A stretch of DNA of 29,753 nucleotides from a virus. The DNA lies in IMG/VR virus record IMGVR_UViG_3300009032_000257, positions 1 through 29,753 of that record; one strand, given 5' to 3'. The translations under genes and the position numbers were made by a program. Below the pieces are notes generated by a model. It was given only the letters and a program-made list of their open reading frames with translations. It made no database searches and was not told where the DNA came from. Position 1 is the first letter of the stretch, and each line of letters starts with the position of its first letter. Below are positions 2,349-28,235 of the stretch, piece by piece.

Positions 2349-2432
2349 CTGGACATCCAGCCATACAGTTTCCCAATAACCCAGTCCCCCACCAATCAAA
2401 CAATCCAGACAAACAGACATCCAGCTACCCAT
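2349..2432. repeat. Phased CCAN/NTGG tetramer array (array 0, in head operon)
   Basis: The gap between the MuF and protease genes (2332-2469) holds nine CCAN or NTGG tetramers starting at 2349, 2357, 2361, 2373, 2381, 2389, 2405, 2421 and 2429. All starts are 1 modulo 4. Only one CCA in the stretch (2392) is out of register. The tetramers are separated by 4, 8 or 12 nt. The same phased pattern recurs next to and inside the partition genes about 20 kb away, so I read this as a remote member of one family of protein-binding sites. It is the only sizeable gap in the head operon. Confidence 0.75.
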
Positions 2433-20149: not shown

Positions 20150-21025
20150 GTGGCCACAAATAATGCTATAAACGGTTCAATTAAGATCACTACTTATACT
20201 TCTAGTTCTGGAACATGGACAAAGGACTTTCGTACGAAGTGGATAGAAGTATTTTTATGGGGCGGAGGTGGTGGTGGAGCTTCCGGAAGAAAAGGAACTA
20301 GCGCTTCATCTTCCGGAGGAGGAGGTGGTGGTTCTACAGGTTCAGGATATTTTGCAGCTCCTTCTTCATTTTTTGGATCCACAGAGTCTTATACAATTGG
20401 AGCTAGCGCTGGTGGGGCAGTAGCCCAAACCGTAGATGCGACAAATGGTAATAATGGAACTGCCGGAGGTAATACAACATTTGGAAATATGATAGCTGTT
20501 GGTGGAGGTGCGGGCCAAGGCGGAGGAACTTCATCAGGTATCAATGGCGTCGGTGGAGGATTAAACACTTCATATGCTATTTCCTCCGTTGTAACTAATC
20601 CTGGTGGTGCTGGAAGAAATACCGCAGGAGATACAACAGCAGCAGTAATTACTTTTTCACCTACAGGAGGTGGCGGTGGCGGCGGTGGTGATACTGTTAC
20701 TGCAAGATCTGGAGGATCTGGCGGGGCAATTAATAATTCAAATGGTGTTACTTATGTAACCGGCGGAACCGCAGGAATAGAAACAGGCACGCTAAATGGT
20801 GGTAACGGAAATCCTTCTGTGACTAGCGGTGGATTAATTTGTGGTGGTTCTGCTGGCGGTGGCGGCGGCGGAGCAAAAGCTGGAGCGACAGGTGGAACTG
20901 GCGGAAATGGAGGTAATCCTGGAGGTGCTGGTGGTGGCGGAGGCGGGGGAATATCCGCACAAGCCAATTCAGGAGCTGGTGGTACAGGCTCCGCTGGTAA
21001 AATAATAGTCATCGAGCACTTCTAA
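20150..21025 (+). CDS. Glycine-rich tail adhesin, first paralogue
   Basis: A 291-residue protein starting with GTG 20150 (ATAAGGAG upstream). The N-terminal part has the Gly_rich-type start: TTYTSSSGTWTKDFRTKWIE (14-33) then VFLWGGGGGGASG, a beta-strand that leads into poly-glycine segments. The body is about 40 percent glycine with GGGGGG blocks and interspersed Ser/Thr/Asn loops, ending in GKIIVIEHF. Proteins of this kind often act as phage receptor-binding tips, where glycine loops fold into polyglycine helices (T2 gp38 style). A paralogue follows at once, and the two share a 54-bp exact stretch. High glycine coding makes the opposite strand open, but that is a shadow. Confidence 0.72.
   Translation: MATNNAINGSIKITTYTSSSGTWTKDFRTKWIEVFLWGGGGGGASGRKGTSASSSGGGGGGSTGSGYFAAPSSFFGSTESYTIGASAGGAVAQTVDATNGNNGTAGGNTTFGNMIAVGGGAGQGGGTSSGINGVGGGLNTSYAISSVVTNPGGAGRNTAGDTTAAVITFSPTGGGGGGGGDTVTARSGGSGGAINNSNGVTYVTGGTAGIETGTLNGGNGNPSVTSGGLICGGSAGGGGGGAKAGATGGTGGNGGNPGGAGGGGGGGISAQANSGAGGTGSAGKIIVIEHF
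20861..20914 (+). repeat. 54-bp exact direct repeat, copy 1
   Basis: Identical to 21746-21799. It starts GGCGGCGGCGGAGC and ends AATGGAGGT. It lies in the first glycine-rich adhesin and encodes the GGGGAKAGATGGTGGNGG segment. Its identity over synonymous positions suggests recent duplication or gene conversion. Confidence 0.85.
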
Positions 21026-21037
21026 AAAGGGGTAAAT

Positions 21038-21910
21038 ATGGTTTTACGCAATAGTATAAATGGTTCAACTAAAGTCTCTACCTTTACTTCTTCTGGAACA
21101 TGGACTAAGGACTCTCGTACTCAGTGGGTTGAAGTATTTTTATGGGGTGGAGGCGCTGGCGGTGGTTCTGGGAGAAAAGGATCATCTACAGTATCTTCAG
21201 GTGGGGGAGGAGGAGGTTCTGGAGGAGCAGGATACTATACGATTCCTGCTTCTTTTTTTGGTGATACCGAATCATATTCAGTGGGAGCATCTGCAAATGG
21301 TGGTGTAGCACAAACCACAGATAACACAAACGGTAATGCTGGAACATCGGGGAATAACACAACATTTGGAAATTTGATAAGTGCTGGTGGAAATCCTGGA
21401 AATGCAGGGACAACTACTAACACTTCTGCCTCTTCTGGTGGTAATTTATACACTGAATTTGCTCCTTCGATTGCTGCTAGCACGGGTACTGGTGGAACTA
21501 TAGCTTCATCAACTAGCGTACAAGCAGTAGTAGGTAATATATTACCTACTGGAGGAGGCGGCGGTGGTGGCGGTGATACGGGCACTGCAAGATCTGGGGG
21601 ATCCGGTGGCAATATTACAAATGCAAATTCTATTGTGAAGATAACCGGTGGGTCCGGAGGAATAGAAACAGGAACCCTAAACGGTGGTAATGGAAATTCT
21701 GCCCTTACGACCGGAGGTTTAGTTAGTGGTGGTACTGGTGGTGGAGGCGGCGGCGGAGCAAAAGCTGGAGCGACAGGTGGAACTGGCGGAAATGGAGGTT
21801 TCCCTGGTGGTGCCGGTAGTGGTGGTGGAGGAGGGATATCTTCGCAAGCCAATTCAGGAGCAGGCGGTACAGGCGCTGCTGGTAAAATAATCATCATTGA
21901 ACATTTCTGA
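21038..21910 (+). CDS. Glycine-rich tail adhesin, second paralogue
   Basis: A 290-residue tandem copy of the preceding gene. It begins with SINGSTKVSTFTSSGTWTKD (6-25) and VEVFLWGGGAGGGSG, and keeps the same Gly-rich layout, a GGGGGGGGDTGTARSGGSGG block, and the end GKIIIIEHF. The two proteins differ most in their middle loops (about 100-165), the part that would be expected to contact receptors. AAGGGG precedes ATG 21038. It is the last gene of the late operon; a 687-nt gap follows. Confidence 0.72.
   Translation: MVLRNSINGSTKVSTFTSSGTWTKDSRTQWVEVFLWGGGAGGGSGRKGSSTVSSGGGGGGSGGAGYYTIPASFFGDTESYSVGASANGGVAQTTDNTNGNAGTSGNNTTFGNLISAGGNPGNAGTTTNTSASSGGNLYTEFAPSIAASTGTGGTIASSTSVQAVVGNILPTGGGGGGGGDTGTARSGGSGGNITNANSIVKITGGSGGIETGTLNGGNGNSALTTGGLVSGGTGGGGGGGAKAGATGGTGGNGGFPGGAGSGGGGGISSQANSGAGGTGAAGKIIIIEHF
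21746..21799 (+). repeat. 54-bp exact direct repeat, copy 2
   Basis: Identical to 20861-20914, in the equivalent place in the second glycine-rich adhesin. Confidence 0.85.
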
Positions 21911-22096: not shown

Positions 22097-22148
22097 ATGG
22101 CTGGGAAACCAACCATATAGCTGGAAAACCAGACAACCACCTATCCAT
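22097..22148. repeat. Phased CCAN/NTGG tetramer array (array 1)
   Basis: Eight tetramers start at 22097, 22101, 22109, 22113, 22121, 22129, 22137 and 22145, all 1 modulo 4 (ATGG, CTGG, CCAA, CCAT, CTGG, CCAG, CCAC, CCAT). Every CCA or TGG in the stretch is in register. AT-rich 4-nt spacers separate most. It shares a 17-bp exact repeat (22125-22141) with array 2 (22428-22444). Confidence 0.8.
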
Positions 22149-22303: not shown

Positions 22304-22495
22304 ATGGTTGGGTTTCTGGAATTCTGGTTAAACATATAAATGGATTCCCAGAAATCCAACCAACCAACCATCTGGAAATCTTTTAAACCAGCCACCATAC
22401 CAGCAAGCCACTGAACTGGACATCCATAAAACCAGACAACCACCCGACATTCCTACTATCCATCCAGCTGGGTGTCCAGAAAATAAGCCATCCAG
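22304..22495. repeat. Phased CCAN/NTGG tetramer array (array 2, main)
   Basis: Twenty-five CCAN or NTGG tetramers in one 4-bp register over 192 bp. Starts are 22304, 22308, 22316, 22324, 22340, 22348, 22356, 22360, 22364, 22368, 22372, 22388, 22392, 22400, 22408, 22416, 22424, 22432, 22440, 22460, 22464, 22468, 22476, 22488 and 22492. Only one CCA (22395) is out of register. The array is mixed in orientation (NTGG is the reverse complement of CCAN). It lies upstream of parA, which fits a centromere-type site; chance alone would place only about a quarter in any one register. Confidence 0.85.
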
Positions 22496-22597: not shown

Positions 22598-22768
22598 TTA
22601 CTTCACATTCATTTTTTCTAGTACACTTGAAAGAATGAAATCATTCATGCTCTTGTCGTTCTGAGCAGCCATAATCCTGATCGCTTTTCTCGTTTCAGGG
22701 GAACATTCCAAAGTAATTCGAGCCCTTTTTGGCTTCTCAGGCAATTCTTTAACAGGTTTTTTAGCCAT
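22598..22768 (-). CDS. Small ribbon-helix-helix DNA-binding protein
   Basis: A 56-residue protein on the minus strand. A basic, flexible N-terminus (MAKKPVKELPEKPKRA) is followed by the RHH core: strand ARITLECS (16-23), helix PETRKAIRIMAAQ (24-36), a turn with NDKS, and helix MNDFILSSVLEKM (41-53). This is the size and layout of CopG/Arc or ParG-type proteins, which bind DNA as dimers of dimers. GAAGAAGG lies 6-14 nt before the start. It is divergent from parA, with inverted repeats between them, so it probably represses parA and/or itself, or binds the nearby CCAN arrays. It could also be an antitoxin, but no toxin gene is adjacent. Confidence 0.72.
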   Translation of the reverse strand: MAKKPVKELPEKPKRARITLECSPETRKAIRIMAAQNDKSMNDFILSSVLEKMNVK

Positions 22769-22931: not shown

Positions 22932-23714
22932 ATGTTCAAAATAGCCATCTCCAATCAAAAAGGAGGATGCGGGAAAACGACCTCTAGCATCAACCTTGCG
23001 GCTGGTTTAGCTTATGCGGGCAAAAAAGTCTTACTGATAGACTTAGACCCTCAAGGCAACTCCACAATAGGCCTAGGAATCAAAACAGAGAATCGTCAAA
23101 CGATTGCTGAATTGCTTTGCCAAGAAGAATGCGAAGTCAAAGATATCGTGCAAGACACCTATATAGAAGGTCTTCATATCCTTCCCTCAGATGTATCTTT
23201 AGCTGTAGCAGACGTCAAACTCGCTCAAATTCAAGCTAAAGAATTCGCTCTTCGTTCAAAACTAGTCGATCTCACCTATGATTATATAATCATTGATACC
23301 TCCCCTACATTTGGCACTCTTCTTACAAATGCTGTATTGGCAGCTGATTATATTATATTGCCTGTTGGGCTAGACTACTTCAACCTAGCTGGGATGCAGA
23401 ACTTCATGGATACCATCAACCGAACAAATAAGAAAGTCGGTCAATTGGTCAATCATCGCGCTGAAATTCTAGGAGTGCTATTCACTTTCTTCAAAATGTC
23501 TACCAATCATTCGAAAAGAATCTTCGATGCGATTAACGACCTCTTCGGAGACAAAGTCTTTAATACACGAATTCCTGAAAACGTTAAATTAAAGGAATCA
23601 CAAGAAGCAGCTAAAGCTATTTTCGATTTCGATCCTAATTGTTCAAGTGCTAAAGCTTACAATGATTTTACAAATGAACTAATGGAAAGGCTAGGTGCAT
23701 ATGTCAGGAATTAA
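22932..23714 (+). CDS. parA: ParA-type partition ATPase
   Basis: A 260-residue ParA/MinD-family ATPase with no N-terminal HTH, so it is of the small (type Ib-like) class. The deviant Walker A is KGGCGKTT (residues 10-17), with the signature Lys at 10. Walker A' is LLIDLDPQGN (34-43), and Walker B is YIIIDTSP (about 117-124). The C-terminal part has RIPENVKLKESQ, as in other ParAs. ATP-bound dimers coat the nucleoid and move plasmids by interacting with a centromere-bound partner. The next gene, a RHH protein, overlaps by 14 nt, and phased CCAN arrays lie on both sides, as expected for a par locus. AAGG lies about 10 nt before ATG. Confidence 0.9.
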   Translation: MFKIAISNQKGGCGKTTSSINLAAGLAYAGKKVLLIDLDPQGNSTIGLGIKTENRQTIAELLCQEECEVKDIVQDTYIEGLHILPSDVSLAVADVKLAQIQAKEFALRSKLVDLTYDYIIIDTSPTFGTLLTNAVLAADYIILPVGLDYFNLAGMQNFMDTINRTNKKVGQLVNHRAEILGVLFTFFKMSTNHSKRIFDAINDLFGDKVFNTRIPENVKLKESQEAAKAIFDFDPNCSSAKAYNDFTNELMERLGAYVRN

Positions 23715-24213
23715 CGAAATCAAGAAAAAAGCCAAGTTGTCAATAGATGAAATGTATGATAATCAGCCAGTTGGGAAGCTGGACAACCAGAAAGAAGGGA
23801 AACAAGAAAGCAAACAAACAATCCAGCCAGCCAGCCAACTAGAAAACAAGCCAGACTCCCACCCAACCGGAAGTCCATCTTTCCAGGAAGTAAGCCAGGC
23901 TCTTAACAACAAAGCTGGCCACACAACAATCCAACAAAATGGAAAGCTGGAAACTAATCCGGTTATTAAACAAGAAACTCAAACAACCCGTCCAACGACC
24001 ATATTCCCAACAACAAAGCAGCAAACACAAAAAATCCCGACCTATAAAATGACCTTTAATTTAACCGAAGACATTTACAAAGCTTTCAATGATCTTTATG
24101 CAAATCGGATGCTACAAGGATGTAAGACAGAAAAATCTGAAATGATCTGCGAGGCCATTCAGTGGCTTATTAAAATGGAAGAAGAACAGCAAACACAACA
24201 AACAGAGAAATAG
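23701..24213 (+). CDS. Putative centromere-binding protein with C-terminal RHH
   Basis: About 170 residues from ATG 23701 (GAAAGG upstream); a GTG two codons earlier is possible. The N-terminal 110 residues are Gln/Asn/Pro/Ser/Lys-rich and disordered. The C-terminal 50 residues resemble RHH: a strand YKMTFNLTE (about 114-122), helix DIYKAFNDLYANRM and helix TEKSEMICEAIQWLIKMEEE. The gene overlaps parA by 14 nt, the usual parA-parB/parG arrangement. The N-terminal coding region also carries a 19-box phased CCAN array, so the low-complexity protein sequence may be a by-product of DNA-site selection. Called a ParB/ParG functional analogue; it is not a ParB/Spo0J family member. Confidence 0.65.
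   Translation: MSGINEIKKKAKLSIDEMYDNQPVGKLDNQKEGKQESKQTIQPASQLENKPDSHPTGSPSFQEVSQALNNKAGHTTIQQNGKLETNPVIKQETQTTRPTTIFPTTKQQTQKIPTYKMTFNLTEDIYKAFNDLYANRMLQGCKTEKSEMICEAIQWLIKMEEEQQTQQTEK
23767..23950. repeat. Phased CCAN/NTGG tetramer array (array 3, inside coding sequence)
   Basis: Nineteen tetramers start at 23767, 23771, 23779, 23787, 23823, 23827, 23831, 23835, 23851, 23859, 23863, 23875, 23883, 23895, 23915, 23919, 23931, 23939 and 23947, all 3 modulo 4. No CCA or TGG in the stretch is out of register. The 4-bp register is kept through a 3-bp reading frame. Confidence 0.85.
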
Positions 24214-24246: not shown

Positions 24247-26592
24247 ATGATTGACAATTTGGTAAAAGAAAAACTAAAGGCCTCTATACGCATTGAGGAG
24301 GTGGCTGAACATCTAGACCTCCATCATAAATTAAACCTCAAGCGCGTTGGTGGTTATTTGGTTGGAAAATGCATTTCAGGGCATGAGTCAAAAACCGGTC
24401 AATGCTTCAGGCTAGGTTCTGGATGGAGCCAATTTCATTGCTTTAGCTGTAATGAATCCTTTGATGTAATAGAACTTGTTCAAATGGAAAAAGGCTTTGG
24501 CTATGTGGATGCATGCAAATATCTAGCAGAAACCTTTCGCTGTGATTTACTAGACGAGTTGCAGAGATATAAGCCCATTGCTCCTGAAACTAAAAAATCT
24601 TACGCTCTCGCCAACCTGTATGAATTGGTCTTCGAATATGGAAAAACCCTGCTCGCGAAGAAAGAAGGAAAAGAAGCATTTCAATATCTGACTGAAGTAA
24701 GAGGGTATGATACTGCTAAGCTTTTGACGACAGAATGGATTTATTGGCCCAAGGACGCGCAAATAAGAGAACACCTAAGGTCCCAGCTTCCACCAGAAAG
24801 ACATCACGAAATAAGCGAAATTAAACTCAATGGCGCGGGTGGTGATCTTTTTAGAGCAGCGCTTCCTTATAGAGACAAGTTTGGAAAAATATTAGGCTTT
24901 GCAAAAAGAGCAACCATCAAAGAAGGAGCTCCAGATTCCGATGGAAAACTTTATAGATGGAGCTATACAGCGGGTCTCAAAAAAGACGATCTTTTCAATA
25001 TTTATAAATGCAAACGCGAAAGCCAGCTTCTTCTCGTTGAAGGACTTCCAGATGCAGCCTATCTCCCTAGCCTTGGAATTCAAAACATCGTTGCAACAGG
25101 TCAAGGGGATTTATCTTCTAAGCACCTCGAAAGTTTAAAGATTTATGAAATAGAAAGTGTCGTTATTATTTTTGACAATGATTCTAAGGATAGCAAAGGG
25201 GAGATTGGATCTATTGAAAAGGCTAAAAAAGCCTCTGACATTTTGGAAGCAAATGGAATCAAAGCATTTATTCTTCCTCCTCATCTACTCAGTCCGTTTA
25301 AGGATCCAGATGAATTCGTCAAAGCCAATGGTCATGATGCATTTAAAAAATTGATCCAAGAAAATGCTCAATCACGAGCGAGATGGCTTCCTTCCTACCT
25401 TGCTTATAAAGACGACCTAAACACAGACATGGGTCGTTATTCTGCATTAGGAAGAGCCTCCAAAGAATATGTTAAAATTGAAGATGCTTTAGACAAGAGT
25501 ATCTTTAAGCAAGAAATGGAAGCAATTTTTAATCTGAGTCCTAATGAAATTGATGACATTATGGCTAAATCTCTAAAAGAGCAAAAAAAGAAAGATGAAG
25601 AAGAAAATTACAAAAAATCACTTGCAGAAGCTCAAAAGCTCATTTCACTCGGAGAGATAAAGAAAGCTGAGCAGATTCTTTCTCAAGTAAAAAAAGAGCA
25701 TAAAAAAGATGACTTTCTTCTTAAGCCTTATACTGTAGAAAACCTAAAGCAAGATTTATCAACTATTCAAGAAGGCCTGAAAACCGGATATAAATCACTT
25801 GATGCCACAATTCAAATCCCTCAAGAAGCCATCACCATTATTGCGGGAAGGCCCTCCCATGGAAAAACAACCGCATTGCTTAATTTTTTCGTCAATATGG
25901 TCAAGCTCTACCCAGATAGAGAATTTTACTTTTTTTCTTACGAAGAACCTAAAAATCAAATTCTGTTAAAAGTTCTGAATATCCTAACTGGGGAATTCAT
26001 CAATGAAGCCAATAACCTTGGTAACCTAGAAGGATATCTGAGAGGTGGTTTTACAAAAAATCCTAAGATCAATGAAGGAGTTGCTCTTCTTCAATCTCTG
26101 ACTGAAAGCCATAGATTAGTTGTTAGTGATTTTCCTTATTTTGTAGATGACCTAAGCAAAGTCATTGCCAGTTTGAAAGAACGTGGAAAAATGGGGGCAA
26201 TTTTCATTGATTATATTCAAAAAATAAAATTCAAAGGAAGATCTTCTACAAGACAGCTTGAGCTGCAAAAAATCTCTGAAACAATTCTGGAAACAGCAAA
26301 ATTCAATTCAGTTCCGATTATTCTTGGAGCACAGTTTGGAAGGGGGAACACCAAGCAAGAAGTTTTACGCCTCGATAATTTGCGTGAAGCTGGCGATATT
26401 GAAAACGATGCTAAGCTTGTTTTAGGTATCTGGAATGAAGCTAAAGAAAAATCAGACAGCAAGGGAGAGTCCCTCATGAGTCGAACTGTAGATTTCGATC
26501 TTGTTGTTCTTAAAAATCGCAATGGCCCATCCAATCAAACCATCTCTTTGGTATTTGACAGGCCCTTGTCTACACTAAGAGAGAAAAAATGA
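24247..26592 (+). CDS. Fused primase-helicase (zinc finger, TOPRIM, DnaB-like)
   Basis: A 781-residue protein. The N-terminus has a CHC2-like zinc site: Cys42, His46, Cys65 and Cys68. A TOPRIM domain follows, with LLLVEGLPDA (261-270; Glu265) and VVIIFDNDS (305-313; Asp310, Asp312). The region 440-490 is a charged helical linker. The C-terminal DnaB-like helicase has Walker A GRPSHGKT (534-541), a Walker B region GAIFIDYIQKI (650-660), and ILGAQFGRGNTKQ...LREAGDIENDA (692-721), typical of DnaB motifs. It would unwind and prime the plasmid. Chlamydial plasmids encode a DnaB-like helicase without a primase part, so this is a T7 gp4-like arrangement. It overlaps the next gene in an ATGA junction. 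Confidence 0.88.
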   Translation: MIDNLVKEKLKASIRIEEVAEHLDLHHKLNLKRVGGYLVGKCISGHESKTGQCFRLGSGWSQFHCFSCNESFDVIELVQMEKGFGYVDACKYLAETFRCDLLDELQRYKPIAPETKKSYALANLYELVFEYGKTLLAKKEGKEAFQYLTEVRGYDTAKLLTTEWIYWPKDAQIREHLRSQLPPERHHEISEIKLNGAGGDLFRAALPYRDKFGKILGFAKRATIKEGAPDSDGKLYRWSYTAGLKKDDLFNIYKCKRESQLLLVEGLPDAAYLPSLGIQNIVATGQGDLSSKHLESLKIYEIESVVIIFDNDSKDSKGEIGSIEKAKKASDILEANGIKAFILPPHLLSPFKDPDEFVKANGHDAFKKLIQENAQSRARWLPSYLAYKDDLNTDMGRYSALGRASKEYVKIEDALDKSIFKQEMEAIFNLSPNEIDDIMAKSLKEQKKKDEEENYKKSLAEAQKLISLGEIKKAEQILSQVKKEHKKDDFLLKPYTVENLKQDLSTIQEGLKTGYKSLDATIQIPQEAITIIAGRPSHGKTTALLNFFVNMVKLYPDREFYFFSYEEPKNQILLKVLNILTGEFINEANNLGNLEGYLRGGFTKNPKINEGVALLQSLTESHRLVVSDFPYFVDDLSKVIASLKERGKMGAIFIDYIQKIKFKGRSSTRQLELQKISETILETAKFNSVPIILGAQFGRGNTKQEVLRLDNLREAGDIENDAKLVLGIWNEAKEKSDSKGESLMSRTVDFDLVVLKNRNGPSNQTISLVFDRPLSTLREKK

Positions 26593-28235
26593 GCAACATG
26601 AACAATACCAAAGAAAAACCTAAGTCAAAAAAAATAAAAAAGCCTTCAATTCCACTTGTTGGAGAACTCATTATTCCTCCAAAGGATACGGAAACAAGTT
26701 ATCAACTCCATGTCGTTGATAAAAAAACTGGAAAAACCGTTGAAATTTTAGATTCTGTTGAAGACATACAATTGCTTGGCATGTCGCTCAAAATTAAATC
26801 ATCAGAAAAACAAGAGTGGGAATCCGCCATATCACCTATACAAAGCTTTTCTCCCAATCAGCTTGTCTCTTTGAAAAATATTCTGAATGAAATGGGCCCT
26901 ACTGCTCAACGCTCTCTTATAGAAGAAGCTATTCAGAATATTATCGACCAATCGTCAAATAAAGATACTTTTGCTCTTCCATCGCATGCTCTCATGTTTA
27001 CGTTGCTTGCTATGTTTGCCGGAAAGCCAGATATGATTCCAAGAAGACTTTTAAGCAAGCCTCATTCCGAATGGACTGCTATAGAGCAAAAAGAAGCCGA
27101 AGAATTTTTGTCTTCAATATTAAAAGTCGAAAAAAGCACTTCCTATTTGAATGGACGGGAAACAATCGAAGAAAAATATATTGCAGTCGTAAGCGATAAT
27201 CCAAAAGTAGAAGCACAGGCTGAAATTGACATCTCGCTTTTCAAATCTGACATTCACTTCAGAGAAGTTAGCTTAGCCCTTTATATCAAGCGTACATTTG
27301 GTGCTGAAGGATTGCGTCATCTTCTAGGTTTCTTAATTGGCCTAGAAGAAAATTTTAGAAAAGGCCATTTCATTTGGAGTGTAAATGATCATTTAGCAAG
27401 ACTTGGTCATAGAAAAAAGGCTAATGGCACCTATGACCATGAATTAAAGAAGACTGCCAGCGAAATTATCAGGGTCTTTCAGAGCCTTTTTATCACGGCC
27501 AGAAAAAAAGAGGGGAAAAAAGAGGTCATTCAAGGAGAACGCCTTTTTAGCATCGATGGATTTAGACAAGAGATATTCGATAAGGTTATCATCGATGAAA
27601 AAATCAAGCTAAGAGCAACTGATTTTTGGTATAAAAACGCATTTGAACCAAAAGATGGACAGTCAGCCAAATACACCAAACTTCTAAAGAAAATTGCTCA
27701 AGAGAACCATCGCGAGCATCCTCTAACGATTTATCTAACCCCACTATTGGCCATCTTCTGGAGAATGAATCCTCAACAGAAAATATCCATTCGCAGCTTA
27801 ATGGACTGGTGCGATTTAGATCCATCAGGAAGATATAAGATGAGAGACCTTAGATCTCTAGAGTCCGAGCTTAGCTATATGAAAGAGCATGGATACCTAG
27901 GAGACTGGTCTCATACAGGAGAAAAGTTTTTGCCTTCTGAGTGTGCAGATCCCTTTAGTTGCTCGCTTACACTGACCCCACCTGAGTGGTTAGGGCAAGA
28001 ATTAAGACTCGTACAAGCAAATAGAGAAATACCAGCACTGGAGAAAAAAGAAGATAAAATCCTTGGCATTGAAGAATTTAAGGAGATATACAAAAAATCC
28101 AAACTTAACGTTAGGCAATTTGGCAATCATCTTGGTATCACTGGACAAATGGTCAGTTTTCTCCTAAATGAAAAGAGGCACATTACGAAAGAAGTCTCTG
28201 ACAAAGTGAGGGCATTTGCTGACAAATTTTCGTAA
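26589..28235 (+). CDS. Probable plasmid replication initiator
   Basis: A 548-residue protein. The first 35 residues are Lys-rich. Middle helical regions include VSLALYIKRTFGAEGLRHLL (about 227-246), a HFIWSVNDHLARLGHR segment and LTIYLTPLLAIFWRMNPQQK (about 379-398), reminiscent of winged-helix Rep proteins. The C-terminus is an XRE-like HTH: KLNVRQFGNHLGITGQMVSF (about 508-527) followed by LLNEKRHITKEVSDKV. Location right after the helicase (ATGA overlap) and right before a 1-kb region with iterons, the first of which (28231) overlaps its end, supports a role as origin-binding initiator. I do not recognise an exact family, so the function is inferred from context and HTH. Confidence 0.58.
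   Translation: MSNMNNTKEKPKSKKIKKPSIPLVGELIIPPKDTETSYQLHVVDKKTGKTVEILDSVEDIQLLGMSLKIKSSEKQEWESAISPIQSFSPNQLVSLKNILNEMGPTAQRSLIEEAIQNIIDQSSNKDTFALPSHALMFTLLAMFAGKPDMIPRRLLSKPHSEWTAIEQKEAEEFLSSILKVEKSTSYLNGRETIEEKYIAVVSDNPKVEAQAEIDISLFKSDIHFREVSLALYIKRTFGAEGLRHLLGFLIGLEENFRKGHFIWSVNDHLARLGHRKKANGTYDHELKKTASEIIRVFQSLFITARKKEGKKEVIQGERLFSIDGFRQEIFDKVIIDEKIKLRATDFWYKNAFEPKDGQSAKYTKLLKKIAQENHREHPLTIYLTPLLAIFWRMNPQQKISIRSLMDWCDLDPSGRYKMRDLRSLESELSYMKEHGYLGDWSHTGEKFLPSECADPFSCSLTLTPPEWLGQELRLVQANREIPALEKKEDKILGIEEFKEIYKKSKLNVRQFGNHLGITGQMVSFLLNEKRHITKEVSDKVRAFADKFS

Follow-up and report, generated by a model that had tools for sequence, protein, structure and literature searches.

A probable DNA site for a chlamydial plasmid ParA

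Chlamydial plasmids have ParA without ParB homologs, according to a 2021 survey (PMC7846284), and we found no description of a chlamydial plasmid centromere in the open-access literature. On which DNA site would such a ParA act, and through which partner? The question is raised by a 29,753-nucleotide virus record (IMGVR_UViG_3300009032_000257; the whole stretch is called the window here), which has portal, capsid and tail genes together with parA and a primase-helicase gene, and in which CCAN/NTGG tetramers (boxes) are arrayed in a 4-bp register. The closest annotated relative of the window is Criblamydia sequanensis plasmid 1 (89.5 kb; ParA identity 99%), which carries phage structural genes as well as metal-resistance and other genes; its phage-like genes were described in the same survey (PMC7846284). 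The parA product of the window matched Pfam AAA_31 (3.5e-53) and the phrog_164 ParA-like partition protein (1.3e-62), and is a ParA-family Walker ATPase such as type Ib ParA-RHH partition systems have. After the primase-helicase gene comes a gene for a 548-aa putative replication protein (26589-28235). The features of the locus are collected in Table 1.

Table 1. Box arrays and genes of the par region in the window
Feature	Position	Strand	Observations
Dispersed intergenic array	2349..2432		9/10 boxes in phase, p 1.2e-4; between minor head gene and next phage gene
Small intergenic array	22097..22148		8/8 boxes in one phase; p 6e-5, marginal alone
Main intergenic array	22304..22495		25/26 CCAN/NTGG boxes on a single 4-bp lattice (17 CCAN, 8 NTGG)
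Small RHH protein, 56 aa, TacA/HicB-like	22598..22768	-	Conserved in phage-plasmids, missing from other array-bearing genomes
parA, Walker-type partition ATPase	22932..23714	+	phrog_164 ParA-like; 76% identical to P. naegleriophila pPNK ParA
Putative centromere-binding protein (parB-like gene), 170 aa	23701..24213	+	Start overlaps parA stop by 14 nt; weak RHH support
In-gene array	23767..24010		21/22 boxes in one 4-bp phase, p 1.5e-11; linker-coding part of parB-like gene
Primase-helicase, replication neighbour of the par module	24247..26592	+	DnaG-type zinc finger, Toprim and DnaB C-terminal domains

The boxes keep a single register

A first-pass annotation of this DNA had counted 25 CCAN/NTGG tetramers at positions 0 modulo 4 in the main array. 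The count is exact, and the sole other CCA, at 22395, lies in phase 3. For 25 of 26 boxes in one of four phases, p = 7e-14. The annotation had also proposed a phase count along the whole element against randomised sequence, and this count upholds the register: the whole window was simulated 300 times with a trinucleotide-Markov model, and across all stretches of 200 bp or less no simulated p fell below 1.5e-5 (5th percentile, 1.2e-4). When 26 non-overlapping boxes were placed at random in 192 bp, at most 17 fell in one phase (20,000 trials). The eight single-phase boxes of the small array had likewise been counted correctly, with a p that is only marginal after correction for the whole window.

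Two arrays had been missed. One lies within the 23701-24213 gene, directly downstream of parA; its boxes occupy all three codon positions, so that the register is independent of the reading frame. The other, between head genes, has a conserved position: an array is found at the same place in two related genomes (G235 and G240) and on Criblamydia plasmid 1, and at the same gene end in a third genome (G237). The main array, described as "upstream of parA", is flanked by the upstream tail-region gene and the small RHH gene, whose 3' ends converge on it; it does not lie at the promoter of parA.

Related IMG/VR records, Criblamydia plasmid 1 and Chlamydiae MAGs have arrays of this box and pitch, in every case together with a full-length second gene. 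The arrays of Criblamydia plasmid 1 include one at 84.5-84.7 kb. Among the relatives examined, those with a full-length gene after parA carry arrays, and in nearly all of them the linker region of that gene has one. Many of these arrays belong to close relatives, and hence not all are independent; the in-phase tally of 458/473, taken over stretches picked for arrays, is descriptive and has no test value. Two relatives (L013 and L016) have a further array ∼5 kb downstream. CCA arrays kilobases away from par were seen at L013:13705-13916, L016:13761-14000 and G115:C12:67214-67684, and some of them overlap other ORFs.

The lattice is conserved and appears to be read as a whole

Between close relatives, the CCA bases of intergenic arrays had 0.06-0.08 substitutions per comparison; the fourth box base, at 0.34, changed 4-6 times faster, and the spacers stood at 0.24. 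Inside the gene, the values were about 0.03-0.05, 0.19 and 0.08, respectively. The sole indel in the aligned intergenic array measures exactly 4 bp. At one lattice site the window has CTGG where relatives have CCAT or CCAG, with the register kept, which indicates that orientation is free and register fixed. In lattice tetramers that are not boxes, G is under-represented at position 2 and C at position 3, a rule that is reverse-complement symmetric; hence, the whole lattice appears to be read. Neighbouring boxes (n = 434) are spaced by 8 bp in 197 cases, by 4 bp in 120, by 16 bp in 55 and by 12 bp in 30. That 8 bp is the commonest spacing suggests an 8-bp step per dimer, with two registers allowed.

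A register could also be left by slipped-strand growth of CCAA or CCAG, the arrays then being a decayed tetranucleotide microsatellite or a compositional artefact. Tandem Repeats Finder did return two short perfect runs of about four copies (CCAA x3.8 at 22356 and CCAG x3.8 at 23823), but no repeat array, which makes the CCA/TGG pattern a register rather than a conventional tandem repeat. CCAN and NTGG share one lattice; a homologous site carries the box in opposite orientations; the fourth base and the spacers drift but CCA stays; synonymous codons favour the boxes; and one relative uses another box at 8 bp (see below). We consider this explanation very improbable.

The in-gene array is probably not a by-product of the protein code

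If the linker of the window is encoded with random synonymous codons, 9.4 ± 2.5 in-phase boxes are expected, against 21 observed (0/3000 trials). The same null gave 0/3000 in each of five relatives (L003, L005, L013, L015 and L016), and 4/3000 in L006, whose array is split by a frame-preserving shift. L007, which has a short linker, carries a weak in-gene array (7/9 boxes), reached in 72/3000 trials. A stricter null, the permutation of each gene's own codons, gave a mean of 16.3 in-phase boxes for the window, with 44/3000 trials reaching 21; the corresponding figures were 193/3000 in L005 and 0/3000 in L003, L013 and L016.

The part of the signal that own-codon permutation retains is what would be expected if the array were a mere by-product of a repetitive Q/P/N/T-rich linker protein. 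The randomisation of synonymous codons and the permutation results in L003, L013 and L016 argue against this. Moreover, the linker protein sequence diverges among relatives while the lattice persists, the N- and C-terminal parts being conserved, and the fourth box base is more variable than the spacers even within the gene. We therefore give the by-product explanation little credence. The codon statistics indicate that in most long-linker members synonymous codons are chosen such that the boxes stay in register, and the simplest account would be selection on the DNA lattice, which the disordered linker follows.

The same architecture was found with a different box. The gene after parA in genome G081 (locus L024) encodes a 144-aa relative of the 23701-24213 product. 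Here the boxes are AAGT/ACTT, on an 8-bp lattice, and they occur in the intergenic region past the gene (11/12) as well as inside it (8/9). Random synonymous codons reached the in-gene count in 1/5000 trials. That the architecture recurs with a different box speaks against a compositional accident, and in favour of box and binder having co-evolved. We propose, as a reading on which we are evenly divided, a coding centromere: a segregation site inside the gene of its own binder, in the part that codes for a disordered linker, whose amino acids would be largely dictated by the DNA, recurring with at least two box types, CCAN at 4/8 bp and AAGT/ACTT at 8 bp. Such a recurrence would imply that box and DNA-binding domain evolve together.

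The product of the gene after parA is the likely binder

The first-pass annotation had read the arrays as an RHH-type centromere next to two RHH genes. The comparative evidence strengthens the centromere reading and shifts the choice of protein. The small RHH gene is absent from two whole genomes, G001 and G002, both of which bear arrays, and this makes its product an unlikely binder. The likely predicted binder is the 23701-24213 product, and the small RHH protein is probably not one.

As to "two RHH genes", the fold of the 23701-24213 product is weakly supported. The protein has a conserved N-terminal peptide (MSGI..KKKAKLS.DEM), a variable disordered linker and a conserved C-terminal domain of a possible strand followed by two helices. 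In the AF2 model, residues 22-54 and 56-103 have a pLDDT <50, and the two helices follow a strand-like segment in RHH order; the model is a monomer, and the ribbon of an RHH protein forms only in the dimer. One family member matched RHH_3 at an E value of 0.0028, which is weak, and four matched an Arc-like repressor family at 0.04 or worse. The Pfam search gave nothing above the cut-off, Foldseek with the full model and with the domain gave no useful match, and neither the full protein nor the domain nor a short relative had a meaningful match among solved structures. Alignment to the small RHH family with hhalign reached 2% probability, and the phage database search returned no relative. Matches to OCM3 and nucleoporin structures were discarded, being confined to the low-complexity linker. 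In its position directly downstream of parA, its flexible N-terminus and its conserved C-terminal domain, the product resembles the partner protein of type Ib systems.

RHH proteins are usually repressors, and the arrays might be operators, for the small RHH protein or for the 23701-24213 product, that control transcription and have no role in segregation. The small RHH gene is adjacent to the main array, and the parS sites of pSM19035 overlap promoters (PMC9499535). Nevertheless, the main array between convergent 3' ends and the array in coding sequence are not at promoters, G001 and G002 carry arrays without the small RHH gene, and arrays of 20-30 boxes far exceed usual operators. An operator function on its own is thus unlikely, and binding by the 23701-24213 product at centromere sites remains our preferred reading.

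Arrays track the C-terminal domain of the ParA partner

Some related ParA proteins, up to 76% identical, have a partner of the CT583/Pgp6 type. At two such loci, L054 and L009 (one and the same as L053), no array was found, and motif-agnostic scans of L009, L053, L054, L026, L057 and L058 revealed no 4- or 8-bp array. No array was found either in L023, where parA is accompanied by a 120-aa relative; the period-12 and period-9 signals seen in L023 and L009 match what codon-related or short repeats would give. Among short RHH relatives without parA (L025, L027-L044, L046 and L047), arrays are mostly absent.

The CT583 protein of P. naegleriophila pPNK is similar to the 23701-24213 product only over residues 1-25 (64% identity), from which it follows that the array tracks the C-terminal domain; the CT583/Pgp6-type C-terminal region is not found in the 23701-24213 product. 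The Pgp6/CT583-type partners at L009:9767-10519 and L054:2267-3016 share the N-terminal MSGI..K.KAK.S.DEM with the RHH-like partner. The shared peptide suggests a common ParA contact joined to an exchangeable DNA-binding half, in which case Pgp6 might serve the Pgp6-type chlamydial plasmids as centromere-binding protein.

A typical iteron is a direct repeat of about 17-22 bp. If the arrays were iterons of a replication origin, bound by an initiator such as the 26589-28235 product, or if they served both replication and partition, the primase-helicase and putative replication genes directly after the par module and the extra array ∼5 kb downstream in L013 and L016 would find an explanation. What is conserved, however, is only the tetramer lattice, in both orientations, and Tandem Repeats Finder gave 4-bp and 12-bp stubs and 9-bp repeats rather than iterons. 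In addition, the arrays track the parB-like gene: L006 and L007 keep them with different replication genes after it. We judge a role as iterons to be unlikely.

A probable type Ib-like partition system with distributed sites

Taken together, the comparisons of sequences make it quite probable that a family of chlamydial phage-plasmids and plasmids has a type Ib-like partition system, in which the arrays are the cis-acting centromere sites and the 23701-24213 product the binder. The sequences show the register, the conservation of box and register, the co-occurrence with the 23701-type gene, and DNA-level selection inside the gene. Array binding and coating, ParA contact, ATPase stimulation and segregation are what we infer. 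In this scheme, the product's C-terminal RHH-like dimers would occupy CCAN boxes whichever way these face, usually in steps of 8 bp but with 4-bp offsets tolerated, and would coat the whole lattice; the basic N-terminal peptide would touch ParA and trigger ATP hydrolysis. In type Ib systems, an N-terminal tail with an arginine finger stimulates the ATPase (PMC5016525). The sites would be distributed beside par, in the head-gene region and in the linker-coding stretch of the binder's own gene, providing several attachment points, as in N15. The array 20 kb from par could have another role.

Short repeated boxes near the par operon, which type Ib systems have, are represented by the small and main arrays and occur also in the relatives. 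ParFG-parH of TP228 (type Ib, with the RHH protein ParG) likewise consists of a ParA-type ATPase followed by a small protein with a flexible N-terminal tail and a C-terminal DNA-binding domain, and parH has degenerate tetramer boxes with AT-rich spacers, direct and inverted (PMC7308502, PMC5016525). The window differs in its CCAN box, a much denser 4-bp lattice, several dispersed arrays, an array inside the binder's gene and a binder linker of 60-110 residues. It lies outside the ParG/parH subgroup, with its ParG-type tetramers at 8-bp spacing, both by its box and by the frequent 4-bp spacing (120/434).

In Delta/Omega/parS of pSM19035 (RHH protein Omega), as in the window, a replicon has several arrays of short boxes in either orientation and contiguous register; its parS consists of heptads in both orientations, at least 4 of which must be contiguous (PMC9499535). 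The Omega sites are 7-bp heptads at promoters, whereas the window has a 4/8-bp lattice at non-promoter and coding positions. The first-pass annotation had taken mixed orientations as a departure from precedent, which does not hold, since both parH (PMC5016525) and the pSM19035 sites (PMC9499535) mix direct and inverted boxes. The CCAN box does depart from precedent, as it remarked, and so do the closeness of the 4-bp pitch, under which 8 bp is preferred, and the siting in coding sequence.

A centromere inside the binder's coding sequence is known from ParA-ParT-parS of the Streptomyces plasmid SCP2 (PMC12260392). There, parT holds a single 18-bp inverted repeat for a ParB-like clamp protein, whereas the window has a phased array of ∼240 bp in a linker-coding region and an RHH-like protein. 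Chlamydial Pgp5 (ParA)/Pgp6 (CT583 family) shares with the window a homologous ParA and a partner gene directly downstream, with the N-terminal likeness described above; the C-terminal part of the partner is unrelated, and the loci are without CCA arrays. The phage-plasmid N15 is, like the window, a prophage-plasmid with several ParB-binding sites (four IR sites; PMC7205306), but its Sop system has a SopB-type protein and single inverted repeats.

One class of chlamydial plasmids thereby gains a candidate centromere-binding protein (a candidate ParB) and a candidate centromere; the arrays are probably the long-missing centromere that prevents loss of these phage-plasmids at cell division. The strict 4-bp register allows predictions at single-base resolution about the polymerisation of an RHH-like protein on DNA. 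In the linker-coding region a single sequence would both encode protein and act as predicted binding site, the linker being free to follow the DNA. How box and DNA-binding domain change together could be studied in the natural experiment that the CCAN and AAGT families provide.

Other features of the element and its relatives

On Criblamydia plasmid 1, a gene of the aminoglycoside phosphotransferase family (L008:7724-8623) stands between the array and the small RHH gene, and the annotated hypothetical protein HXH92_RS00295 (L008:7506-7685; NZ_LK031773.1 64010-64189) sits on a box array and may be a spurious ORF. In L018 (G002:C114) the parA frame begins abruptly behind tail-gene-like sequence; the assembly is probably chimeric, or the element has suffered a deletion. 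In the tail region of the window, 20150-21025 and 21038-21910 encode tandem paralogous glycine-rich proteins with GGGGGG-rich repeats, the last copy of which varies among relatives. A module of ∼90 residues (..NVSVNGVALAPITFATSHLATM..GASQATATI..) is repeated among the structural proteins, once in the 3735-4517 gene, twice in the 14761-16749 gene and, by eye, also in the 7745-9631 gene; it is possibly a shared decoration domain.
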